From Actinomycetota bacterium (lineage in GTDB: Bacteria > Actinomycetota > Thermoleophilia > Gaiellales > F1-60-MAGs149), in the NCBI GenBank assembly GCA_005798855.1, contig SYIF01000127.1:1-33020 (forward strand): a DNA stretch of 33,020 bases, read 5' to 3'. The notes below the pieces were generated by a model. That model ran no database searches. It was not told where the DNA came from and saw only the letters and a list, made by a program, of their open reading frames with translations. Of the stretch, positions 20,584 to 30,137 are shown piece by piece; the stretch's first letter is position 1, and every line of letters begins with the position of its first letter. The translations under genes were made by a program, and so were the position numbers.

Positions 20584-20616
20584 ACGTTGCTTTGGGGTCT
20601 GACCCCAAGGCAACGT
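20584..20616. terminator. 33-bp hairpin between convergent genes
   Basis: Arms of 15 nt (20584-20598 and 20602-20616, one G-T wobble pair) close a 3-nt CTG loop, with the core GGGGTCTGACCCC. It fills most of the 51-bp gap between the amine oxidase and the LLM oxidoreductase, so it is a likely bidirectional terminator. The decamer GACCCCAAGG of its right arm also occurs exactly 40 bp upstream, inside the amine oxidase C-terminus (20561-20570). Confidence 0.65.
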
Positions 20617-21711: not shown

Positions 21712-21749
21712 GAGGCGACATTCTGGGCCCGGGCCAAGAATGTCGCCTC
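21712..21749. repeat. 38-bp near-perfect palindrome upstream of ATP-grasp gene
   Basis: The 19-nt arms (GAGGCGACATTCTGGGCCC and its complement) have a single mismatch (21725/21736). It shares arm length and the GACAT position with the palindrome at 800-837. Here it lies between divergent genes, 22 bp before the ATG at 21772, and covers the expected -35 region of that gene. It could be an operator rather than a terminator. Confidence 0.65.
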
Positions 21750-21771: not shown

Positions 21772-22995
21772 ATGCTCGACGCAGCCACTACCAAGACCCT
21801 TCGCCGCGTACTCGCAGAACGCCCCGACAAGCCGCTCGGCATCGTCCTCGACGTCGGCTTTACGAACGGGCTTGCCTCCGCCCGCGCGCTGCGCGATGCT
21901 GGTGCGCCCGTGATCGTCGTCGACCACCGCAAAGGCGCGCTTGGTTTTAGATCGCGCGGCGTTGCCCCCGTGCTGGCGCCCGACCCGGCCGTCGACGAAG
22001 CGGGCTTCATCGACGTGCTCGCCGAGATTGCCGCCCTGACCGGGCGCACGGGATTCCTGTTCCCCACCCACGATGCCCACCTCGTCGCCGTCTCCAAGCA
22101 CGCCGACCGCATCCAGCCGCTCGTACTACCGGGCTCGCACTGGGACATCATCGAGCCGCTGATGGCGAAGATTCCACAGATCGAATTGGCCGAGCGCGCC
22201 GGCGTGCCCGTGCCCCGCTCGTTTATGCCGACGACGCGCGAAGAGGCCGAGGCCGCTGCCGCGCAGATCCCGTACCCCGCAATCGCTAAGCCAAGCATCG
22301 GCATCGACTTTAAGCACGCCGAGAAGGTGCCGGTGATCCTCGCCAACACGCCAGAGGAACTCGTCGAAGGCTATGAGCGCATTGCCGCAACGGGCGACCT
22401 TGCAATCTTCCAAGAGGTGATCCCGGGTGGTGACGATGCACTCTGGACCGTCGGCTCCTTCAGCACCAACGGCGGCGAAGCGGTCGGCACGTTCTGTGGC
22501 CGCAAGCTCGTACAGCGCCCACCGATCTTTGGCACCTGCCGGGTTGGCGAGGCGCGCTGGGCCGACGAACCCGTCGCCTACGCCGACGCCCTACTCCGCA
22601 CCAGTGGCTTCGATGGCATCACGCAGATCGAATTCAAGCACGACCCGCGCGATGGCTCGTACCGCCTGATCGAGATCAACCTCCGCAGTTGGCAATGGCA
22701 TTCGCTCGCACGACGCTGCGGTGTCGACCTCGTTGGCCTCTGCTATCGCAGCGCCTGTGGCGAGCCCGCCGGCCGCCTGATCTCTGGGCCGCGGCACGAC
22801 GGTCGGCGCTGGGTTGCCGCAGTGCCTCACCTCAAGGAAGGCTTGGGTGGACGCGAGAGCCTCGGCAGTATCTTTAAACCCCTTGCGGGCATCATCGAGG
22901 AACCTGTCTTCAGCATCCGCGACCCGAAGCCAGGCGCTGTACAGGTGGCTGGCCTCGTAGTTGGTCCCGTGAAGCGACGGCTCAAGCGGGGCTAA
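21772..22995 (+). CDS. ATP-grasp ligase (carboxylate-amine ligase type)
   Basis: This 407-residue protein has the ATP-grasp layout: an N-terminal Rossmann-like preATP domain (GIVLDVGFTNGLASARALRDAGAPVIVVD), the ATP-binding lysine region YPAIAKPSIGIDFKHAEKVPVI (about 164-185), FQEVIPGGDDALWTVGSF, and the metal-binding end LIEINLRSWQWHSLARRCGVDL (about 302-323). This last block is typical of D-aspartate-ligase-like and other carboxylate-amine ligases found in surface-polymer clusters. It would join a carboxylate to an amine or sugar-linked amine through an acyl phosphate. The acceptor is unknown. It begins the surface-glycan block and converges on a glycosyltransferase. Confidence 0.85.
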   Translation: MLDAATTKTLRRVLAERPDKPLGIVLDVGFTNGLASARALRDAGAPVIVVDHRKGALGFRSRGVAPVLAPDPAVDEAGFIDVLAEIAALTGRTGFLFPTHDAHLVAVSKHADRIQPLVLPGSHWDIIEPLMAKIPQIELAERAGVPVPRSFMPTTREEAEAAAAQIPYPAIAKPSIGIDFKHAEKVPVILANTPEELVEGYERIAATGDLAIFQEVIPGGDDALWTVGSFSTNGGEAVGTFCGRKLVQRPPIFGTCRVGEARWADEPVAYADALLRTSGFDGITQIEFKHDPRDGSYRLIEINLRSWQWHSLARRCGVDLVGLCYRSACGEPAGRLISGPRHDGRRWVAAVPHLKEGLGGRESLGSIFKPLAGIIEEPVFSIRDPKPGAVQVAGLVVGPVKRRLKRG

Positions 22996-23050
22996 CGGCG
23001 TTGCTTCGCTCGCTCGAGCGCGTGCGCGGCATGCCAGTGCGGCCGGCGTC

Positions 23051-24361
23051 TCAACGCGTGACGGTCACACGGACCAGCGAAGCGAGTGTCTCGGCCTGGG
23101 TTTGGCGCGAGATACGCGTGCGGATATCGTCGGCGAGCAACGGACTTGGCAATGTGCCTGCCCGCCACTGATCTACATATTGCTCCACAGCCGCGCGTGT
23201 ACCAGTGACATCGTCGGGAGCAACAATCGCAGCGTCAACGGCCCGAAGTTCGCGTGCTGCTGCTCCGTGGGGCGGTAGCATCGCCAATACAGGTCGGCCG
23301 CAGGCGAGGAGTTCCCAGACCTTGCCAGGTAGAAACTTTGCCCCGTGCCCACCAGCATCTTGCATGAAGATCCGCGCACTGAAAATCAGCGCAACGTCAG
23401 CGTCGGCCTGTGCCTGGAGTGCGGCGGCATGCGAAGCGGGTGGTTCGATCGAAACGACAGGGTCGAGGCCGAGCTCGGTAATGCGGCTGCGGTCGGTATC
23501 GGGGAACCCCCCCATGAAGCGCAGGCGAATCAGATCGCGCAGTTCTGGCCGATCGCGTATGAGGTCGGCGACGGCCTGCAGTAGATACCGCGGCGAGCGA
23601 TCGTCAAAGAACCATCCGGTGTACGTAAAGGTGCAGTGATTAGCGTCGGGTCGGCGTTCGATCGCAGCGAGCTCGTCGAGGTCGATGCCATTAGGAATTA
23701 CCGCGAGTGGTAGATCGGCGCGCAGGCTGCGCACCTCGTCCTCGGCGTGATTGACGACGCTCGCTGCGTCCATGCCGCCAACACACCACCGGGCGAGTCG
23801 CGTGATCGCAGCCTGTTTGACACGAACCTCCACGCGCGACACATCAAGATCGGCGTGGGTGAGCCAGGGATCGCGCCAGTCTGCAATCCACGGCACGTCC
23901 GTGCGGGCACGGATCATACGTCCTGCGACGGCGAGGGTGTTCGGGGGCGCCGTGGTGATGAACGCGTCGAAGCGTCCCGTCTTGAGCAGCTTGAGTGCGG
24001 CCGGCACGACATCGGCCAGCCACGGCGCATTGGCGTCGGGGAGAAACAGTCGCTGTGGAGCAAGCGCTGCGCGCACGGCGAGCTTGCGCGCAGGCGTTGG
24101 CGCGTTGCGAATCCGATCGGCGGGAAGTTGTCGCAGCGACGGCCCTCGATAACGCACGCGATGCACCGGAACGTTGGCAGGGATACGGCTGACGGAGGCC
24201 GGGTCCTCGGCCAGCCACTTGGCGTCCGTTGGCACCAGCATCTCCACATCGATCCCTAGCTCTGGCAGACGCCGCGAGAACTGCAGCGTGCGCTCGACGC
24301 CACCACCACCGGTCGGCGGGTAGTAGAAGGCGATCAGGAGGATGCGGAGACAGTCGGTCAT
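23051..24361 (-). CDS. Glycosyltransferase, GT4-like (GT-B fold)
   Basis: This 436-residue protein begins MTDCLRILLIAFYYPPTGGGGVERTLQFSRRL, the glycine-rich acceptor-side loop of GT-B glycosyltransferases. It continues with WIADWRDPWL, VIPNGIDLDEL, FTYTGWFFDDRSPRYLLQAVADLI, and the donor-nucleotide site GGHGAKFLPGKVWELLACGRPVLAMLPPHGAAAREL. It probably transfers a sugar from a nucleotide donor to a lipid-linked or surface glycan in the cytoplasm. ATG 24361 is chosen because TACACT stands 7 nt upstream and the open frame above it crosses a palindrome. It is divergent from another glycosyltransferase, with which it shares promoter and start sequence in inverted orientation. Confidence 0.88.
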   Translation of the reverse strand: MTDCLRILLIAFYYPPTGGGGVERTLQFSRRLPELGIDVEMLVPTDAKWLAEDPASVSRIPANVPVHRVRYRGPSLRQLPADRIRNAPTPARKLAVRAALAPQRLFLPDANAPWLADVVPAALKLLKTGRFDAFITTAPPNTLAVAGRMIRARTDVPWIADWRDPWLTHADLDVSRVEVRVKQAAITRLARWCVGGMDAASVVNHAEDEVRSLRADLPLAVIPNGIDLDELAAIERRPDANHCTFTYTGWFFDDRSPRYLLQAVADLIRDRPELRDLIRLRFMGGFPDTDRSRITELGLDPVVSIEPPASHAAALQAQADADVALIFSARIFMQDAGGHGAKFLPGKVWELLACGRPVLAMLPPHGAAARELRAVDAAIVAPDDVTGTRAAVEQYVDQWRAGTLPSPLLADDIRTRISRQTQAETLASLVRVTVTR

Positions 24362-24366
24362 CCGCC

Positions 24367-24459
24367 CGAGTGTACGGCAACCCGAGTGGCACGCCGACGT
24401 CACAAAGGGGTTTGACCCCTTTGTGACATCCCGCCACCCCACCACCTGCCGTACACTCG
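24367..24459. promoter_or_regulatory. Symmetric divergent glycosyltransferase promoters on one dyad axis
   Basis: Outer arms CGAGTGTACGGCA (24367-24379) and TGCCGTACACTCG (24447-24459) are exact inverted repeats, and each holds a TACACT -10 box. Inner arms GTCACAAAGGGGT (24399-24411) and its complement (24415-24427) form a 13-bp stem with a TTG loop. Both pairs share exactly the same centre (24413). Each -10 is 24 nt from the inner palindrome. Start codons follow the -10 boxes by 7 nt (24361) and 8 nt (24466). Confidence 0.75.
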
Positions 24460-24465
24460 CCTGCA

Positions 24466-25464
24466 ATGACTGACCGCCTCCGCATTCTCCACGCGCCCCT
24501 CAATATCGCGGGTGGGCCTGAGGCGTTGAGTGCCGGACTGAACGAGTTTGGCTGTGACAGTCGACTGATGGTCTTTACGCGTCAGCCGTTTCGCGACGGC
24601 TCCGATATCAACCTGCATTTGCGGCAGGGTGGTGGCCCGGTCAACCTCGCGCTCAATCTCCCCAAGCAGGCCTACGCGTTGGGTCGCGCGATTCCGAACT
24701 ACGACATCTTCCAGTTCCACTTTGGCGTCACGATCGTGCCCAAGCGCATCAATCTGCCTCTGTTGGGCCGGCTCGCAAAGGGTCGCGTTTTCCACTTCTG
24801 GGGCTCGGACCTCCGCGACGCACCCGTGTCGAAATGGGATTACGCACTCCGCCATGCCGACGCCGCCGTCGTCGGCTCGTACGCGATTCTGCCGCGTGCG
24901 CCGCGCGCAGCCGACTGGCCCGACTACGACGTCGTACCGCCCGGGATCAACCTCGAGACCTGGCAGCCCGCTGTGCCAACCCCTGGCAAAACGATTCGCA
25001 TCGTGCACGCACCATCGCGACGGCGCTCAAAGGGCACGGAGGCTGTACTCGAGGCGGTCTCCACGTTGCAGAGCGAGGGCGCTCCGATCGAGCTCGATCT
25101 CGTCGAGAACACGCCAAACGATCAGGCGCGGCTGCGCTACGCCGCGGCCGACCTCGTAATCGACCAGCTCAACGTCGGCTGGTACGGCCTCTTCTCGATT
25201 GAATCGATGGCGCTCGGCAAGCCCTGCATCGTCCGTCTCGACCCCGAGGCGGTCGCCGCAACCGAGGCCGCCTTCGACACCAAGATCCCTCTGGTCAACG
25301 CGGACAAGGACACGCTGGTTGAAGTTCTGCGGGGTCTCGTTCGCGAGCCTGAGCAGCTAACCGAGATCGGCCACGCCTCGCGCGCCTACGTTGAGGCAGT
25401 GCACGGCCACACGGCAATCGCCGAGCGGATGCTCAACGTCTATCGCCGTCGCGGATTGGCGTAA
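24466..25464 (+). CDS. Glycosyltransferase, GT4-like, shorter form
   Basis: This 332-residue GT-B protein starts MTDRLRILHAPLNIAGGPEALSAGLNEFG. It contains FHFWGSDLRDAP, VVPPGINLETWQP and HAPSRRRSKGTEAVLEAV (start of the donor-binding half), then GWYGLFSIESMALGKPCIVRLDPEA, which places the conserved glutamate E of the E-x7-E region. Family members move a sugar from a nucleotide donor onto a growing glycan. It is shorter than the divergent neighbour, and the proteins are alike only at MTD-x-LRIL at the start. No Shine-Dalgarno is present; TACACT stands 8 nt before the ATG. Confidence 0.85.
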   Translation: MTDRLRILHAPLNIAGGPEALSAGLNEFGCDSRLMVFTRQPFRDGSDINLHLRQGGGPVNLALNLPKQAYALGRAIPNYDIFQFHFGVTIVPKRINLPLLGRLAKGRVFHFWGSDLRDAPVSKWDYALRHADAAVVGSYAILPRAPRAADWPDYDVVPPGINLETWQPAVPTPGKTIRIVHAPSRRRSKGTEAVLEAVSTLQSEGAPIELDLVENTPNDQARLRYAAADLVIDQLNVGWYGLFSIESMALGKPCIVRLDPEAVAATEAAFDTKIPLVNADKDTLVEVLRGLVREPEQLTEIGHASRAYVEAVHGHTAIAERMLNVYRRRGLA

Positions 25465-25505
25465 GCGTGCTGTACGGCCTCGGGCCCTGTCATGACCCGG
25501 AGGAC

Positions 25506-25534
25506 TATGTGGCTATGTGTTTATGTGATATGTT
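25506..25534 (+). promoter_or_regulatory. TATGTG direct repeats in toxin-antitoxin promoter
   Basis: TATGTG occurs at 25506, 25514 and 25522 (8-bp period), followed by TATGTT (25529-25534), which is also a good -10 box 6 nt before the antitoxin ATG. The first repeat sits exactly 17 bp before the -10, where the -35 should be. This fits an autoregulatory operator for a ribbon-helix-helix antitoxin. Confidence 0.55.
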
Positions 25535-25540
25535 CAGCGC

Positions 25541-25777
25541 ATGCCACAACTGCACCTCTATGTCTCTGATGCTGTCGCGGACACGATGCGCGCGCGTGCA
25601 CAGACGGAGGAACTCCCACTCAGTCGATATCTGGCAAAGGTGGTCACCGATTCGGTGACGGCCGGATGGCCAGCTGGGTATTTCGAAACCGTCTTTGGTA
25701 GCAGCCCCGACTTCGAAGTCCCTGACTGGCCCGACTACTCACCGCTTGAACCTTGGGACGGCACGCCCGACGCATGA
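25541..25777 (+). CDS. Ribbon-helix-helix antitoxin (VapB-like)
   Basis: This 78-residue protein has an N-terminal strand-helix-helix pattern (LHLYVSDAVADTMRARAQTEELPLSRYLAKVV, 4-35) typical of ribbon-helix-helix DNA-binding antitoxins. An acidic, aromatic C-terminal tail (FEVPDWPDYSPLEPWDG, 58-74) is of the kind that wraps and inhibits a PIN toxin. The toxin gene starts within its stop codon (ATGA). It would bind the TATGTG repeats in its own promoter (inference). Family assignment rests on layout and partner rather than strong sequence signatures. Confidence 0.75.
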   Translation: MPQLHLYVSDAVADTMRARAQTEELPLSRYLAKVVTDSVTAGWPAGYFETVFGSSPDFEVPDWPDYSPLEPWDGTPDA

Positions 25778-26175
25778 AGCGCATCCTCGATACCTCCGTC
25801 TTTGTCGATGCTTTACGCGGCAACGATGAGGTGCGCGAGCGGATGCAGGCCCACGACCCCGCAGGCCTCGCGACCTGCAGCATTGTGCGAGGCGAACTGA
25901 TGGTCGTCGTCGGCAGGTCGCGCGATTCGCAGCGAGAACACTTCCGTGTCGATCTCATGCTGCACCCAATCGCGATGTTCAACTTCGATGATCGCGCAGC
26001 GCGTGCCTTCGGCATCCTCACCGTCATGCTCCAAAAGGCCGGCACAATGATTGGCGTTCCCGATCTGATGATCGCGGCTACCGCTCTGTCGCGCGGAGCC
26101 ATCGTCGTGACGTCGAATCCTAATAATTTTGGACGCGTACCCGGCCTCGTCACCGAAAACTGGCGCACCCGCTAG
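25774..26175 (+). CDS. PIN-domain ribonuclease toxin (VapC-like)
   Basis: This 133-residue PIN-domain protein has acidic residues at D6 (ILDTSVFVDAL), E41 (RGELM) and D97 (VPDLMIAATAL), followed by VVTSNPNNFGRVPGL. The fourth acidic position often found in that last block appears as asparagine. VapC toxins cleave tRNA or rRNA when freed from their antitoxin. The ATG at 25774 overlaps the antitoxin stop by 4 nt, so the pair is translationally coupled. A 21-nt longer reading (GTG-like codon at 25753) would lie inside the antitoxin and is unlikely. Confidence 0.88.
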   Translation: MKRILDTSVFVDALRGNDEVRERMQAHDPAGLATCSIVRGELMVVVGRSRDSQREHFRVDLMLHPIAMFNFDDRAARAFGILTVMLQKAGTMIGVPDLMIAATALSRGAIVVTSNPNNFGRVPGLVTENWRTR

Positions 26176-26198
26176 AGCAGCAGAGCGGCCCAACCCGG

Positions 26199-26204
26199 TA
26201 GACT
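26199..26204 (+). promoter_or_regulatory. -10 box of the epimerase operon
   Basis: TAGACT stands 6 nt before the GTG start at 26211, in the 35-bp gap after the toxin gene. No -35 consensus is obvious. It supports the GTG start and a separate promoter for the four-gene operon. Confidence 0.45.
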
Positions 26205-26210
26205 CCGCAC

Positions 26211-27182
26211 GTGCTGAAGGGCAAGAAATTCTTTCTGACGGGCGGCGCCGGCTTTATTGGCACGACGATTGCGCGGCTGTTGGCAGACGACAACGACGTT
26301 GTCCTGTACGACAACCTGCACAACAACGCGTTGCAGCACACGGATCTCGGGCAGCACCCGAATATCACCTTAGTTCAGGGCGACATTCTCGACCTTGAAC
26401 TCCTGCGCAAGTCGGCCGCGGATGCCACGCACATCATTCATATGGCTGCAATCGCCGGCGTGGCGACGGTGCTCAAGAGCCCGGTGCGCACGATGCGCGT
26501 CAACCTGATGGGCACCGCGAATGTCGCAGAGGTCGCACAGGGTCTTGGCAGCCAGTTGGAGCGGCTCGTTGATTTCTCGACAAGTGAGGTCTTTGGACGC
26601 CACGCCTACAAGGTTGAAGAGACGCACGAGATGTCGGGTGGCCAAGTCGGCGAGGCCCGTTGGTCGTATGCGGTCTCGAAACTGGCGGGCGAGTTCTTCT
26701 TGCATGCGTACTTCGAGGAGTACGGCGTGCCCGTCGCAGTCGTACGCCCCTTCAATATTTACGGTCCGAACCAGATCGGCGTCGGCGCGATCCACCATTT
26801 CGTGCGCCATGCGATCGCGAACGAGGAGATCACCGTCCATAACGACGGTGCCCAGATTCGCGCCTGGTGCTACATGGACGACATTGCCGACGCGGTCCTC
26901 GAGATCCTCGAGAACGACGCGGCGATCGGGCAGTCCTTCAACATCGGTAACCCCCGCAGCGTCTGCACGACCTATGACCTCGCGCTGCGCATCAAGCGCC
27001 TTGCCAACTCGGAGTCGCCAGTCGTCTTTAAGCCGCTCGAGTACACCGACGTTGAGATCCGCATCCCCGACATCACGCAATCACGCGAGCTGCTCAAGTG
27101 GGAACCGAAGGTCGACCTCGATGAGGGCCTCTTGCGCACGATTGAGTGGTACCGCGCGGAGGCTGGCTCCGCCGCGAAGTGA
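26211..27182 (+). CDS. NAD-dependent nucleotide-sugar epimerase/dehydratase
   Basis: This 323-residue extended SDR has GGAGFIG (11-17) for NAD, HMAAIAGV, STS (123-125) and the catalytic Y153-AVSK-157 pair, followed by RPFNIYGPNQIGVGAIHHFV. It interconverts or dehydrates a nucleotide-activated sugar in the cytoplasm; the exact sugar cannot be read. It opens an operon in which the next three genes overlap one another by 4 nt. Its stop overlaps the ATP-grasp GTG start (GTGA, 27179-27182). The start codon is GTG, placed 6 nt after TAGACT. Confidence 0.92.
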   Translation: MLKGKKFFLTGGAGFIGTTIARLLADDNDVVLYDNLHNNALQHTDLGQHPNITLVQGDILDLELLRKSAADATHIIHMAAIAGVATVLKSPVRTMRVNLMGTANVAEVAQGLGSQLERLVDFSTSEVFGRHAYKVEETHEMSGGQVGEARWSYAVSKLAGEFFLHAYFEEYGVPVAVVRPFNIYGPNQIGVGAIHHFVRHAIANEEITVHNDGAQIRAWCYMDDIADAVLEILENDAAIGQSFNIGNPRSVCTTYDLALRIKRLANSESPVVFKPLEYTDVEIRIPDITQSRELLKWEPKVDLDEGLLRTIEWYRAEAGSAAK

Positions 27183-28453
27183 CGACCCCGGCCCTCGTCG
27201 TTCTTGGCGCCGGGCTCTCGCAGCGACCACTCGTTGAGCGTGCGCGGGCCCGCGGGTTGACGACGTGCGTTGTGGATGGTCGGACCGATCGCCCGGCTGC
27301 GGCGGCCGCTGATGTCTTCGTCCACCAGGACTTCTCCGACGTGCCTGGCACGATCGCTGCGCTCGAGGCAGCCGGTGTCGAGACGATCGGCGTGTGCTCG
27401 ATGGGATCGGAGCAGGCGGTCGTGCCGGGTGCGCGCCTCGCCGAGGCGCTTGGCCTGCCCGGTCTTCCGGTCTCGGCGGCGCTGGCCGCGACGGACAAGC
27501 TTGTGCAGCGCGGCCTCTACCGCGACCACGGTGTCCCCTCCGCTGGCTTCGCCGCTGCGCGCACGCTCGATGAGGCGCTGGCCGCGTACGACGAGCTGGG
27601 CCTGCGCGTGATCATCAAGCCGACCGACGGCGCCGCCCAGCGCGGCGTTAGCGACGTACAGTCGCGAGGCGACGTGGCAGCGGCCGTTGAGCACGCGATC
27701 CGCGAATCGCGGACAGGCGAGCTTATCGTCGAGGAGCACCTGTCGGGCCGCGAGTACACCGTGAATGCCTTCGTGCTCGGCGGCGTCTTCCACCCAGTCA
27801 GCGTGACGCTGCGCGACCTCGCGCCCGAGCCAGCCGTCGGTATCTGCATGGCGCACCGGTATCCGTGCGGCCGCTCCGATCAGGACGTGGCGACGATCAT
27901 CGACGTCGTGCGTCAGGCGACGATGGCGATCGGTATCGACGCCGCACCCGTCTACGCGCAGGTGCGCTTCGGTGACGACGGGGCCCGCATGATTGAGTGT
28001 GGTGCGCGCCTTGGCGGTGGCAGCGACGCACAGTTGGCGCGACTCGTGGTTGGCGTCGACCTGATGGAGACCGTCCTTGATACTGCACTCGGCGAGACCA
28101 GCCACACAAGCCTCGTGCCGCGCCCGACCGCAGAGCCCTTCGGCCACTCGCGCTTTGTGATCCCCCTCGCGCCGGGGCGGATCTCCCGTGCCGACCCCGG
28201 TACAGTCGCCGACCTGCCGGGCGTGCACGACGTCGGCTTTTTCCACCAGGCCGGCCAGATCGTGCCACCGCTCTGGTCGGCTTCGGGACGGCTCGGTGTG
28301 CTGCTGATGACAGCCGCCTCGGATGCCGAGCTCGACGCGCGGACAGAGGCGGCGCTCGCCGCTCTGCACGTCATCATCGAGCCCATGGGAGATGCCGAAG
28401 CAATGGCCGCATGGACGGAGCAGTTGAAGCGCGAGCGGACGGGCAGCGCATGA
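27179..28453 (+). CDS. ATP-grasp ligase, second of three
   Basis: This 424-residue protein has a preATP domain (VVLGAGLSQRPLVERARARGL), the nucleotide lysine and glycine-rich loop IIKPTDGAAQRGVSDV (145-160), EEHLSGREYTVNAFV (185-199), and the metal-binding MIECGARLGGGSDAQL (271-286). It resembles the PurK/BacD/L-amino-acid-ligase branch. It should activate a carboxylate with ATP and attach it to an amine. GTG 27179 is the start because it overlaps the epimerase stop as GTGA; the frame is open further upstream only inside the epimerase gene. Its stop overlaps the next gene as ATGA. Confidence 0.87.
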   Translation: MTTPALVVLGAGLSQRPLVERARARGLTTCVVDGRTDRPAAAAADVFVHQDFSDVPGTIAALEAAGVETIGVCSMGSEQAVVPGARLAEALGLPGLPVSAALAATDKLVQRGLYRDHGVPSAGFAAARTLDEALAAYDELGLRVIIKPTDGAAQRGVSDVQSRGDVAAAVEHAIRESRTGELIVEEHLSGREYTVNAFVLGGVFHPVSVTLRDLAPEPAVGICMAHRYPCGRSDQDVATIIDVVRQATMAIGIDAAPVYAQVRFGDDGARMIECGARLGGGSDAQLARLVVGVDLMETVLDTALGETSHTSLVPRPTAEPFGHSRFVIPLAPGRISRADPGTVADLPGVHDVGFFHQAGQIVPPLWSASGRLGVLLMTAASDAELDARTEAALAALHVIIEPMGDAEAMAAWTEQLKRERTGSA

Positions 28454-29100
28454 GCGACTTCTCGCCGGCGGGCTACGTCGAGCTGCTTGAGGCGATCAAA
28501 GCCGGGCGCTACCGCCTGCGCCCGTTTACAGTCGAGCAACCGGCCGAGCAGATGCTGTTTCTGCGCCACGACATTGACGTGTCGCTCGAGGACGCCGTTG
28601 CGATGGCCGAGCTTGAGCACGCGCACCACATTCGTGCCACCTACCTGCTGATGACGCGCAGCATCTTCTACAACCTTGCCTCACCCGCTGGCCTTGCTGC
28701 GGTGGCGCGGCTGCGAGATCTCGGCCACTGGGTCGGCCACCACGCCCTGCACCCGCACACCGATCCGGTCGTAGACTTGGGCTTTGACCCCGTGATGGCC
28801 TGGCACAACCCGGACCCCGCCTACATGGCCGACGCCGTGCCGGGCTGGGTGAACGTCATGGAGTCCCGGTTTACCAGCGACTTCGTGTGGACCTACCGCT
28901 CGGATTCGAACCAGGCGTGGCGCCGCGGCGATCCCGTCGAAGATCTGGCTGCTGGGCGCTTCCCGTGGCTACAGCTGCTGATCCACCCCGTGCTCTGGAT
29001 GGGTGGCACAAACGGGATGGCCGCCACGGCCGAGGCCTTCCTCGACCGCGATCGCACCCGCCGCCTCGAGCACCTGCACCGGGACGACCTGGACCTGTGA
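28450..29100 (+). CDS. Polysaccharide deacetylase-like (NodB/CE4-fold) protein
   Basis: This 216-residue protein shows the LRHDID metal motif (39-43) of the NodB fold, then SLEDAVAMAELEHAHHIRATYLLM, the strand GHWVGHHALHPH (92-103) where the zinc histidines are expected, YRSDSNQAWRRGDP (149-162) and LLIHPVLWMG (176-185). This layout is seen in small deacetylase-like proteins of surface-glycan clusters. It probably removes an acyl group from an amino sugar, although the HxxxH motif is not the textbook form. The start ATG overlaps the previous stop (ATGA) and its stop overlaps the next start (GTGA). Confidence 0.75.
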   Translation: MSDFSPAGYVELLEAIKAGRYRLRPFTVEQPAEQMLFLRHDIDVSLEDAVAMAELEHAHHIRATYLLMTRSIFYNLASPAGLAAVARLRDLGHWVGHHALHPHTDPVVDLGFDPVMAWHNPDPAYMADAVPGWVNVMESRFTSDFVWTYRSDSNQAWRRGDPVEDLAAGRFPWLQLLIHPVLWMGGTNGMAATAEAFLDRDRTRRLEHLHRDDLDL

Positions 29101-30137
29101 GCACCGAGCCGCTGACCATCCTCGTGACCGCCGTCGGCTCGCCCGGCTCGGCTGCGCTGCTGCGCGCGCTGAAGCAAAACGGCGAGCGCCCGGTGCGCAT
29201 CGTCGGCACCGACCTGCGCGAGGAAAACGTCGGGCGTTTCCACTGCGACGCCTTCAGCACCGTGCCCGAGGGCTCGGACCCCGCCTTCGGCCCAGCGATC
29301 CTCGAGCTGGCCCAGCGCGAGAGCGCTCGCGTCGTGTTGCCCCAGGCCTCGTTCGACCTCGCGGGCCTGGCCGAGCTACGCGCCGAGTTCGTGGCGGCCG
29401 GCATCGCACTGATTTGCTCGACGCCCGCGGCCGTGCGTGCGGCCGACAGCAAGCACGCCACGCTCGAGCTGTGCGAGCGACTCGGCGTGCGCGCCCCGGC
29501 CTTCCGCGTTGTGCGTGGTGGAGCTGCGGTGGCCGCTGCCGCCCGCGAGCTCGGCTATCCGGGCAGTGACATCTGCATGAAGCCCGTCGTAGCGGCGGGC
29601 TCGCGTGGCTTCCACGTCATTTCCACGAATGTCGACGCCCGCCACCAGCTGCTGCACGAGCGGCCCGGCGCGATGCCGCTGCGGCTCGAGGACGTCGAAC
29701 GCATCCTCGGTGACGACGAGACCGAGCTTCTCGTGATGGAGCTCGTCACCGGCCTCGAACGCACGGTCGACGGCTACGCGGAAACCGGCCGAATCGTGCT
29801 CGGGCACCCGAAGACGCGTGAGGCCATGCGTGCCGGCCTCGCCATGCGCTTCGAGACGCTCGACGCGCCCGAGCTGATGCAGGTCGCCGAAACGCTCGTG
29901 GCAGGCTTCGCCCTCGATGGGTTCTTCAACCTGCAGCTGATTGGCGACGCTGTGCTCGAGCTGAACCCCCGCATCTCGACGATCGTCTACCAGGACGACC
30001 TCAACCTGCCGTGGCTCGGCATCCGCCGCGCCCTCGGCGAGCTGACCGACGACGAGGCTGCCACGGCACAGGCCCGCGTCCGCTCGGGGCGGATCGCTCT
30101 GCGCTACTTCGACCAGCTCGAGTACGACCCGAACTAA
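29097..30137 (+). CDS. ATP-grasp ligase, third of three (carbamoyl-phosphate-synthase-like)
   Basis: This 346-residue protein has an N-terminal Rossmann-like domain (ILVTAVGSPGSAALLRALKQNG, 8-29), TDLREENVGRFHCD, the nucleotide-binding ICMKPVVAAGSRGFHVIS (159-176), LLVMELVTGLERTVDGYAETG and the metal-binding FFNLQLIGDAVLELNPRIST. It resembles the CarB-like ATP-grasp proteins of surface-polysaccharide clusters. The GTG at 29097 overlaps the deacetylase-like stop (GTGA). The stop TAA (30135-30137) shares bases with the stop of the convergent aminotransferase. It ends the four-gene operon. The chemistry is an acyl-phosphate ligation; substrates are unknown. Confidence 0.85.
   Translation: MSTEPLTILVTAVGSPGSAALLRALKQNGERPVRIVGTDLREENVGRFHCDAFSTVPEGSDPAFGPAILELAQRESARVVLPQASFDLAGLAELRAEFVAAGIALICSTPAAVRAADSKHATLELCERLGVRAPAFRVVRGGAAVAAAARELGYPGSDICMKPVVAAGSRGFHVISTNVDARHQLLHERPGAMPLRLEDVERILGDDETELLVMELVTGLERTVDGYAETGRIVLGHPKTREAMRAGLAMRFETLDAPELMQVAETLVAGFALDGFFNLQLIGDAVLELNPRISTIVYQDDLNLPWLGIRRALGELTDDEAATAQARVRSGRIALRYFDQLEYDPN

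Follow-up and report, generated by a model that had tools for sequence, protein, structure and literature searches.

Dispersed imperfect palindromes of 30–45 nt, occurring singly or as inverted doublets with a spacer, are known as REP or REPIN elements and are associated with RAYT transposases (PMC2817692, PMC3116915). The RAYT gene is flanked on both sides by cognate REP copies, and different RAYTs are paired with different palindromes (PMC2817692, PMC3116915). Single REPs are regarded as remnants of REPINs (PMC3116915). In Actinobacteria, e.g. Mycobacterium tuberculosis, leaderless promoters carry a TANNNT -10 box, have no conserved -35 element, and initiate transcription at or beside the start codon (PMC3898074). 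Short inverted repeats, in turn, are homogenised by polymerase template switching (PMC8604942, PMC7202029). The locus described here resembles each of the three systems in part.

The analysed stretch of 33,020 nt (contig SYIF01000127.1 of assembly GCA_005798855.1), hereafter the window, contains two divergent genes, P1 and P2, encoding glycosyltransferases. The features of the locus are presented in Table 1. The symmetry between the genes very probably results from divergent leaderless promoters with a REP in the middle and from coding starts set by the encoded peptides; the matching promoter arms may have been either copied or supplied together.

Table 1. Features of the divergent glycosyltransferase locus, in positions of the window.
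Feature	Position	Strand	Properties
Glycosyltransferase P1, 436 aa, GT-B type	23051-24361	-	ATG at 24361; Pfam Glyco_transf_4 / Glyco_trans_4_4 above cut-off
First 25 nt of P1 (MTDCLRIL)	24337-24361	-	21/25 identical to P2 start; peptide and codon usage
Left arm, putative leaderless promoter core of P1	24367-24379	-	-10 box TACACT at 24374-24369, 7 nt from ATG
Putative REP hairpin GACGTCACAAAGGGGTTTGACCCCTTTGTGACATC	24396-24430		single copy, family also as doublets; dispersed, RAYT-flanking in a congener
Right arm, putative leaderless promoter core of P2	24447-24459	+	-10 box TACACT at 24452-24457, 8 nt from ATG
First 25 nt of P2 (MTDRLRIL)	24466-24490	+	21/25 identical to P1 start; peptide and codon usage
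Glycosyltransferase P2, 332 aa, GT-B-like	24466-25464	+	ATG at 24466; weak Pfam Glycos_transf_1, E = 6e-4, below cut-off

The pair adjoins genes of an epimerase, a DegT aminotransferase and a polysaccharide flippase. The P1 orthologues of the congeners had the identical start position, P2 orthologues were found in 10 of 12 congeners, and the divergent pair was readable in 10. The genus to which the MAG belongs is represented by MAGs deposited under Thermoleophilia, Gaiellales or Actinobacteria; two of them (L116, L120) were deposited as Bifidobacterium breve and are evidently mislabelled. In other genomes of the order (G017, G020, G039, G054 and others) both homologues were located on the same contig and on opposite strands, about 14–28 kb apart, and not adjacent as in this genus. 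A PIN-domain protein (VapC-like) is encoded at 25774-26175 within the sugar-biosynthesis cluster. The segment from about 25470 to 26130 is a variable site, since it could not be aligned in G001, G005, G009 or G010.

The inner stem consisted of 13 bp (24399-24411 paired with 24415-24427) with a loop of 3 nt and was extended over the whole hairpin with one mismatch. The outer arms were complementary at 13 of 13 positions, both stem and arms were centred on 24413, and the distance from the stem to the -10 box was 24 nt on each side. The 13-bp stem, the arms, their common centre and the 24-nt distance, as well as the agreement of the coding starts, had been described in the initial annotation and were all recovered. 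The annotation had also placed everything on one exact dyad axis, which was correct for the stem and the arms, whereas the centre of the start codons was 24413.5, since the spacers from arm to ATG differ in length (5 and 6 nt) and in sequence (GGCGG versus CCTGCA). No matching sequence was detected between the two sides upstream of the arms, and the 16-nt segments separating the arms from the hairpin were not complementary. Folded as single-stranded DNA, the region nested all the layers with -49.1 kcal/mol, compared with -22.5 +/- 3.0 kcal/mol of the shuffled sequences (z = -8.8). The search of the 1.93-Mb MAG with the exact arm 13-mer resulted in these two sites only, so the arm sequence is not widespread in the genome. 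Rfam and tRNA searches gave no match. The symmetry as a whole exceeds chance, and its layers differ in cause.

The central palindrome was determined to be a member of a dispersed family. In its own MAG, 20 sites with up to 3 mismatches were detected, compared with none for the reversed-pattern control, and the copies often consisted of two hairpins about 67–76 bp apart. Of the strong palindromes in 430 kb of sequence, 24 of 26 were intergenic. In the congener G009 (contig C6, L195 numbering) a RAYT of 278 aa is encoded by an ORF at 1569-2405, and doublets of this palindrome lie on both its sides (about 1503-1603 and 2449-2552). This RAYT contained the HUH motif and matched Pfam Y1_Tnp above the cut-off, and its NCBIfam REP_Tyr_transpos match (E = 6.6e-19) was below the curated cut-off. 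In the orthologous gap, G009 carried a doublet, whereas G006 and the window carried a single hairpin. The central hairpin would thus be a degenerate single REP, the leftover of a REPIN with two hairpins that a RAYT transposase had spread.

Dispersal, single and doublet forms, the flanked RAYT and singles resembling decayed doublets are all shared with the described REP/RAYT systems. There are also differences. The known elements end with GTAG or CGTC tags (PMC3733652), whereas no consistent GTAG or CGTC foot tetranucleotide was evident in the aligned copies of this family. Its size, like that of the other families here, was about 20–35 copies per MAG as compared with hundreds for known REPs; the RAYTs scored below the NCBIfam equivalog cut-off; and the window REP lies between divergent genes, while most REPs are found between convergent or tandem ones. 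The flanking of a RAYT by this palindrome was observed in G009 and not in the own MAG (72% complete), which yielded neither a close copy of the cognate RAYT nor a Pfam match to Y1_Tnp. A protein query of the same MAG yielded one distant RAYT, flanked by another family (REP family B); this stands against the preferred reading. A text search of the literature with the core sequence GGGTCTGACCC/GGGTCAGACCC retrieved no relevant paper.

The palindrome had been suggested to be an operator, at which a bound regulator would control both genes equally via symmetric promoters. The exactly central position, 24 nt from each of two identical -10 boxes, is what such an arrangement would produce. However, the palindrome belongs to a dispersed, RAYT-associated family, palindromes of this kind mostly separate convergent or tandem genes, and the copy in the window is changed in both stem and loop compared with that of G009. 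The congeners argue in the same direction. The gene pair was intact in G001, G004, G008, G010 and G012 with no palindrome in the gap, and in G003, G005 and G007 the gap contained different, unrelated REPs; hence, of the 10 congeners with a readable divergent gap, only G006 and G009 had the central palindrome, and the other 8 lacked it or had another one in its place. An operator is therefore extremely improbable, and no regulator driving both genes was indicated. Being dispersed, RAYT-flanking and absent or replaced in congeners, the palindrome is best assigned to the REP elements spread by RAYTs, and would separate the two promoters probably without a specific regulatory role.

The palindromes resembling the gap inserts flanked other RAYTs of the genus: GATGTTCCAAAGGGG in G003:C9, GGACATGACAA in G005:C31, and GATCAACTTTGCTTTGGGG in G006:C16 and G009:C166. 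Judged from these similarities, at least four REP families have entered the gap. The window itself holds three more REP-like palindromes of other families, at 800-837 (GGACATGACAA...), 20584-20616 (TTGCTTTGGGGTCTGACCCC...) and 21712-21749 (GACATTCTGGGCCCGGGCC...). The own genome has been acted on by several RAYT-REP systems.

The intergenic DNA turns over fast. The P1 genes of the own genome (G000) and G005 were about 97.5% identical at the DNA level while their intergenic DNA was unrelated; the intergenic DNA common to G000, G006 and G009 was 97–98% identical. The P1 block with this 97.5% identity to G005 spans 22849-24362, compared with about 83% for the flanking genes (26133-30070) and 70–86% for the body of P1 against other congeners, which points to a recent recombination of P1 between species. 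An inversion of the intergenic segment between G000 and G010 was considered and judged too weak (cross matches of 12 nt versus 10). In G003 (C35:105106-105158; L150 5106-5158) the leaderless promoter of P1 was located within a private palindrome with a stem of 24 bp, so that an inverted copy of the P1 promoter faces the other gene. The genus-wide search for the TACCCTTG palindrome found the locus of G003 only.

The arms had been annotated as the -10 region of each gene, and the promoter statistics agree with this. For these, genes were predicted in 430 kb of G000 and in 200 kb of G003 by a simple gene finder written for the analysis. Among the 195 sampled genes preceded by a gap, 43 (about 22%) had TANNNT 6–8 nt before the start; in the 430 kb of G000, 25, 14 and 4 genes had it at 6, 7 and 8 nt, respectively, as compared with about one per position elsewhere. 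The same concentration was observed in G003. No enrichment of a TTG -35 motif was seen in this class. The ends of the REP were also considered as -35 elements and were rejected due to the missing TTG enrichment and their too large distance from the -10 boxes. The TANNNT box, the lack of a conserved -35 and the share of genes concerned (about a fifth to a quarter) are similar to M. tuberculosis, with the difference that the leaderless start is here deduced from spacing alone. Each gene would thus be read from its own leaderless promoter, with the -10 box 7–8 nt upstream of the ATG, and transcription would begin at or beside the A of the ATG. As both arms are probably leaderless promoters, their distance to the ATG is fixed on each side. 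The identity of the arms is left unexplained by the promoter class.

In the case of the coding starts, the initial annotation proposed an inverted duplication in which promoter and start codon were copied as one block around the palindrome. The arms identical at 13 of 13 positions, the starts at 21 of 25 and the nearly equal spacing are in line with such an event, as is the occurrence of an MTD-like P2 start only in G000, G006, G008 and G009, where P1 also starts with MT(D/E) or VTD. However, the spacer within the supposed block differs, nothing matches upstream of the arms, and the starts are alike also in genomes with unrelated arms. Given the peptides MTDCLRILL and MTDRLRILH and the genome codon usage, the simulated identity was 19.4 of 25, with P(>=21) = 0.23, and the start matches were not tighter within than between genomes (permutation P = 0.43). 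DNA duplication is thus not needed for the starts, since the peptides and codon usage account for the 21 of 25 matches; the duplication of the starts was rejected, and the block as a whole is very unlikely to have been copied. The starts match because both genes encode the first strand of the GT-B fold (MTDxLRIL) at this place and use the preferred codons of the genome. The two proteins had been described as sharing only the MTD-x-LRIL start; their similarity was indeed confined to the N terminus, where a weak alignment (E = 0.033) was obtained.

The arms require a separate explanation. Their match was the only one of 13/13 among 903 promoter pairs and had a probability of about 3e-5 under the promoter matrix. 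In the other 50 of 51 divergent pairs the longest shared run was at most 6 nt. The comparison window and the measures used for these arm statistics were picked after the match was seen. Pure coincidence would mean that two strong consensus-like leaderless promoters happened to agree and the REP came to lie centrally by chance. TACNCT preceded by CG is indeed near the leaderless consensus of the genome, unrelated promoter pairs shared runs of at least 12 nt in 3 of 820 cases, and a centred insertion would, judged from the gap length, occur by chance in a few per cent. The matrix probability and the short runs of the other divergent pairs speak against it, making coincidence rather doubtful. A further argument against it is that promoters matched within a genome recur with differing sequences: besides TGCCGTACACTCG in G000, G006 and G009, these were GCGTACACTCG in G010, CCCATAATGTC in G007 and TACCCTTG in G005. 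The P1 and P2 promoters were unlike in G003, G008, and G001/G004/G012, i.e. relatives with the divergent pair and unrelated arms do occur beside those with matched arms. Of the two observations that the initial annotation regarded as refuting, unrelated arms in relatives were thus obtained, and many genomic copies of the arm were not. When P2 was permuted among seven lineages, which are few and non-independent through recombination, P was 0.018 for the longest run and 0.09 for the best 13-nt window; this small sample weakens the case for homogenisation. Arm identity exceeds a shared consensus, and a recurring homogenisation or supply of -10 boxes by REPs is plausible but unproven.

The arms may also derive from an earlier palindromic REP, whose outward arms became -10 boxes and whose centre was later split by another REP. 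Both G007 promoters had 12-nt runs in common with one arm of GGGCCCATAATGTCCGCC (G009:C221), a variant of REP family B, and when these promoters were shuffled 20,000 times this match was never reached. The P2 promoter of G003 had 13 nt in common with a family B arm. Moreover, a family C REPIN sits between the G007 promoters, and the distant RAYT of the own genome is flanked by family B. In contrast, a search of 13 congeneric genomes for a REP with the arms GAGTGTAC...GTACACTC yielded the G010 locus only, and the 16 nt between arm and REP are not complementary. For the window, this origin is unlikely. In G010, GCGTACACTCG faces both directions with no REP in the gap, and the arms are therefore not dependent on the REP.

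The likeliest origin of the arms is that one was copied onto the other by template switching between inverted repeats, or that both -10 boxes were supplied together. Copying would have taken place in a hairpin-rich intergenic segment with fast turnover. As in the known cases, imperfect inverted-repeat arms would become identical and hairpin-forming DNA would be the substrate; the proposed switching would here act on facing promoters with a long interval. The unmatched arm-to-ATG spacers argue against a simple recent copy.

The locus shows how layers of independent origin, namely a mobile hairpin, leaderless promoters and a common protein start, can add up to a dyad that looks convincingly regulatory. 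Tentatively, palindromic DNA may repeatedly rebuild head-to-head promoters, with REP insertion and template switching copying or supplying -10 boxes on both sides, resulting in concerted evolution within species and in differences between species. A hairpin spread by a transposase would then be a source of matched divergent promoters. If the residual promoter match is real, facing promoters would have evolved in concert at this locus of freshwater Thermoleophilia, and REP arms would have been recruited as -10 boxes. The RAYT-driven repeats would in this way be linked to the turnover of promoters.
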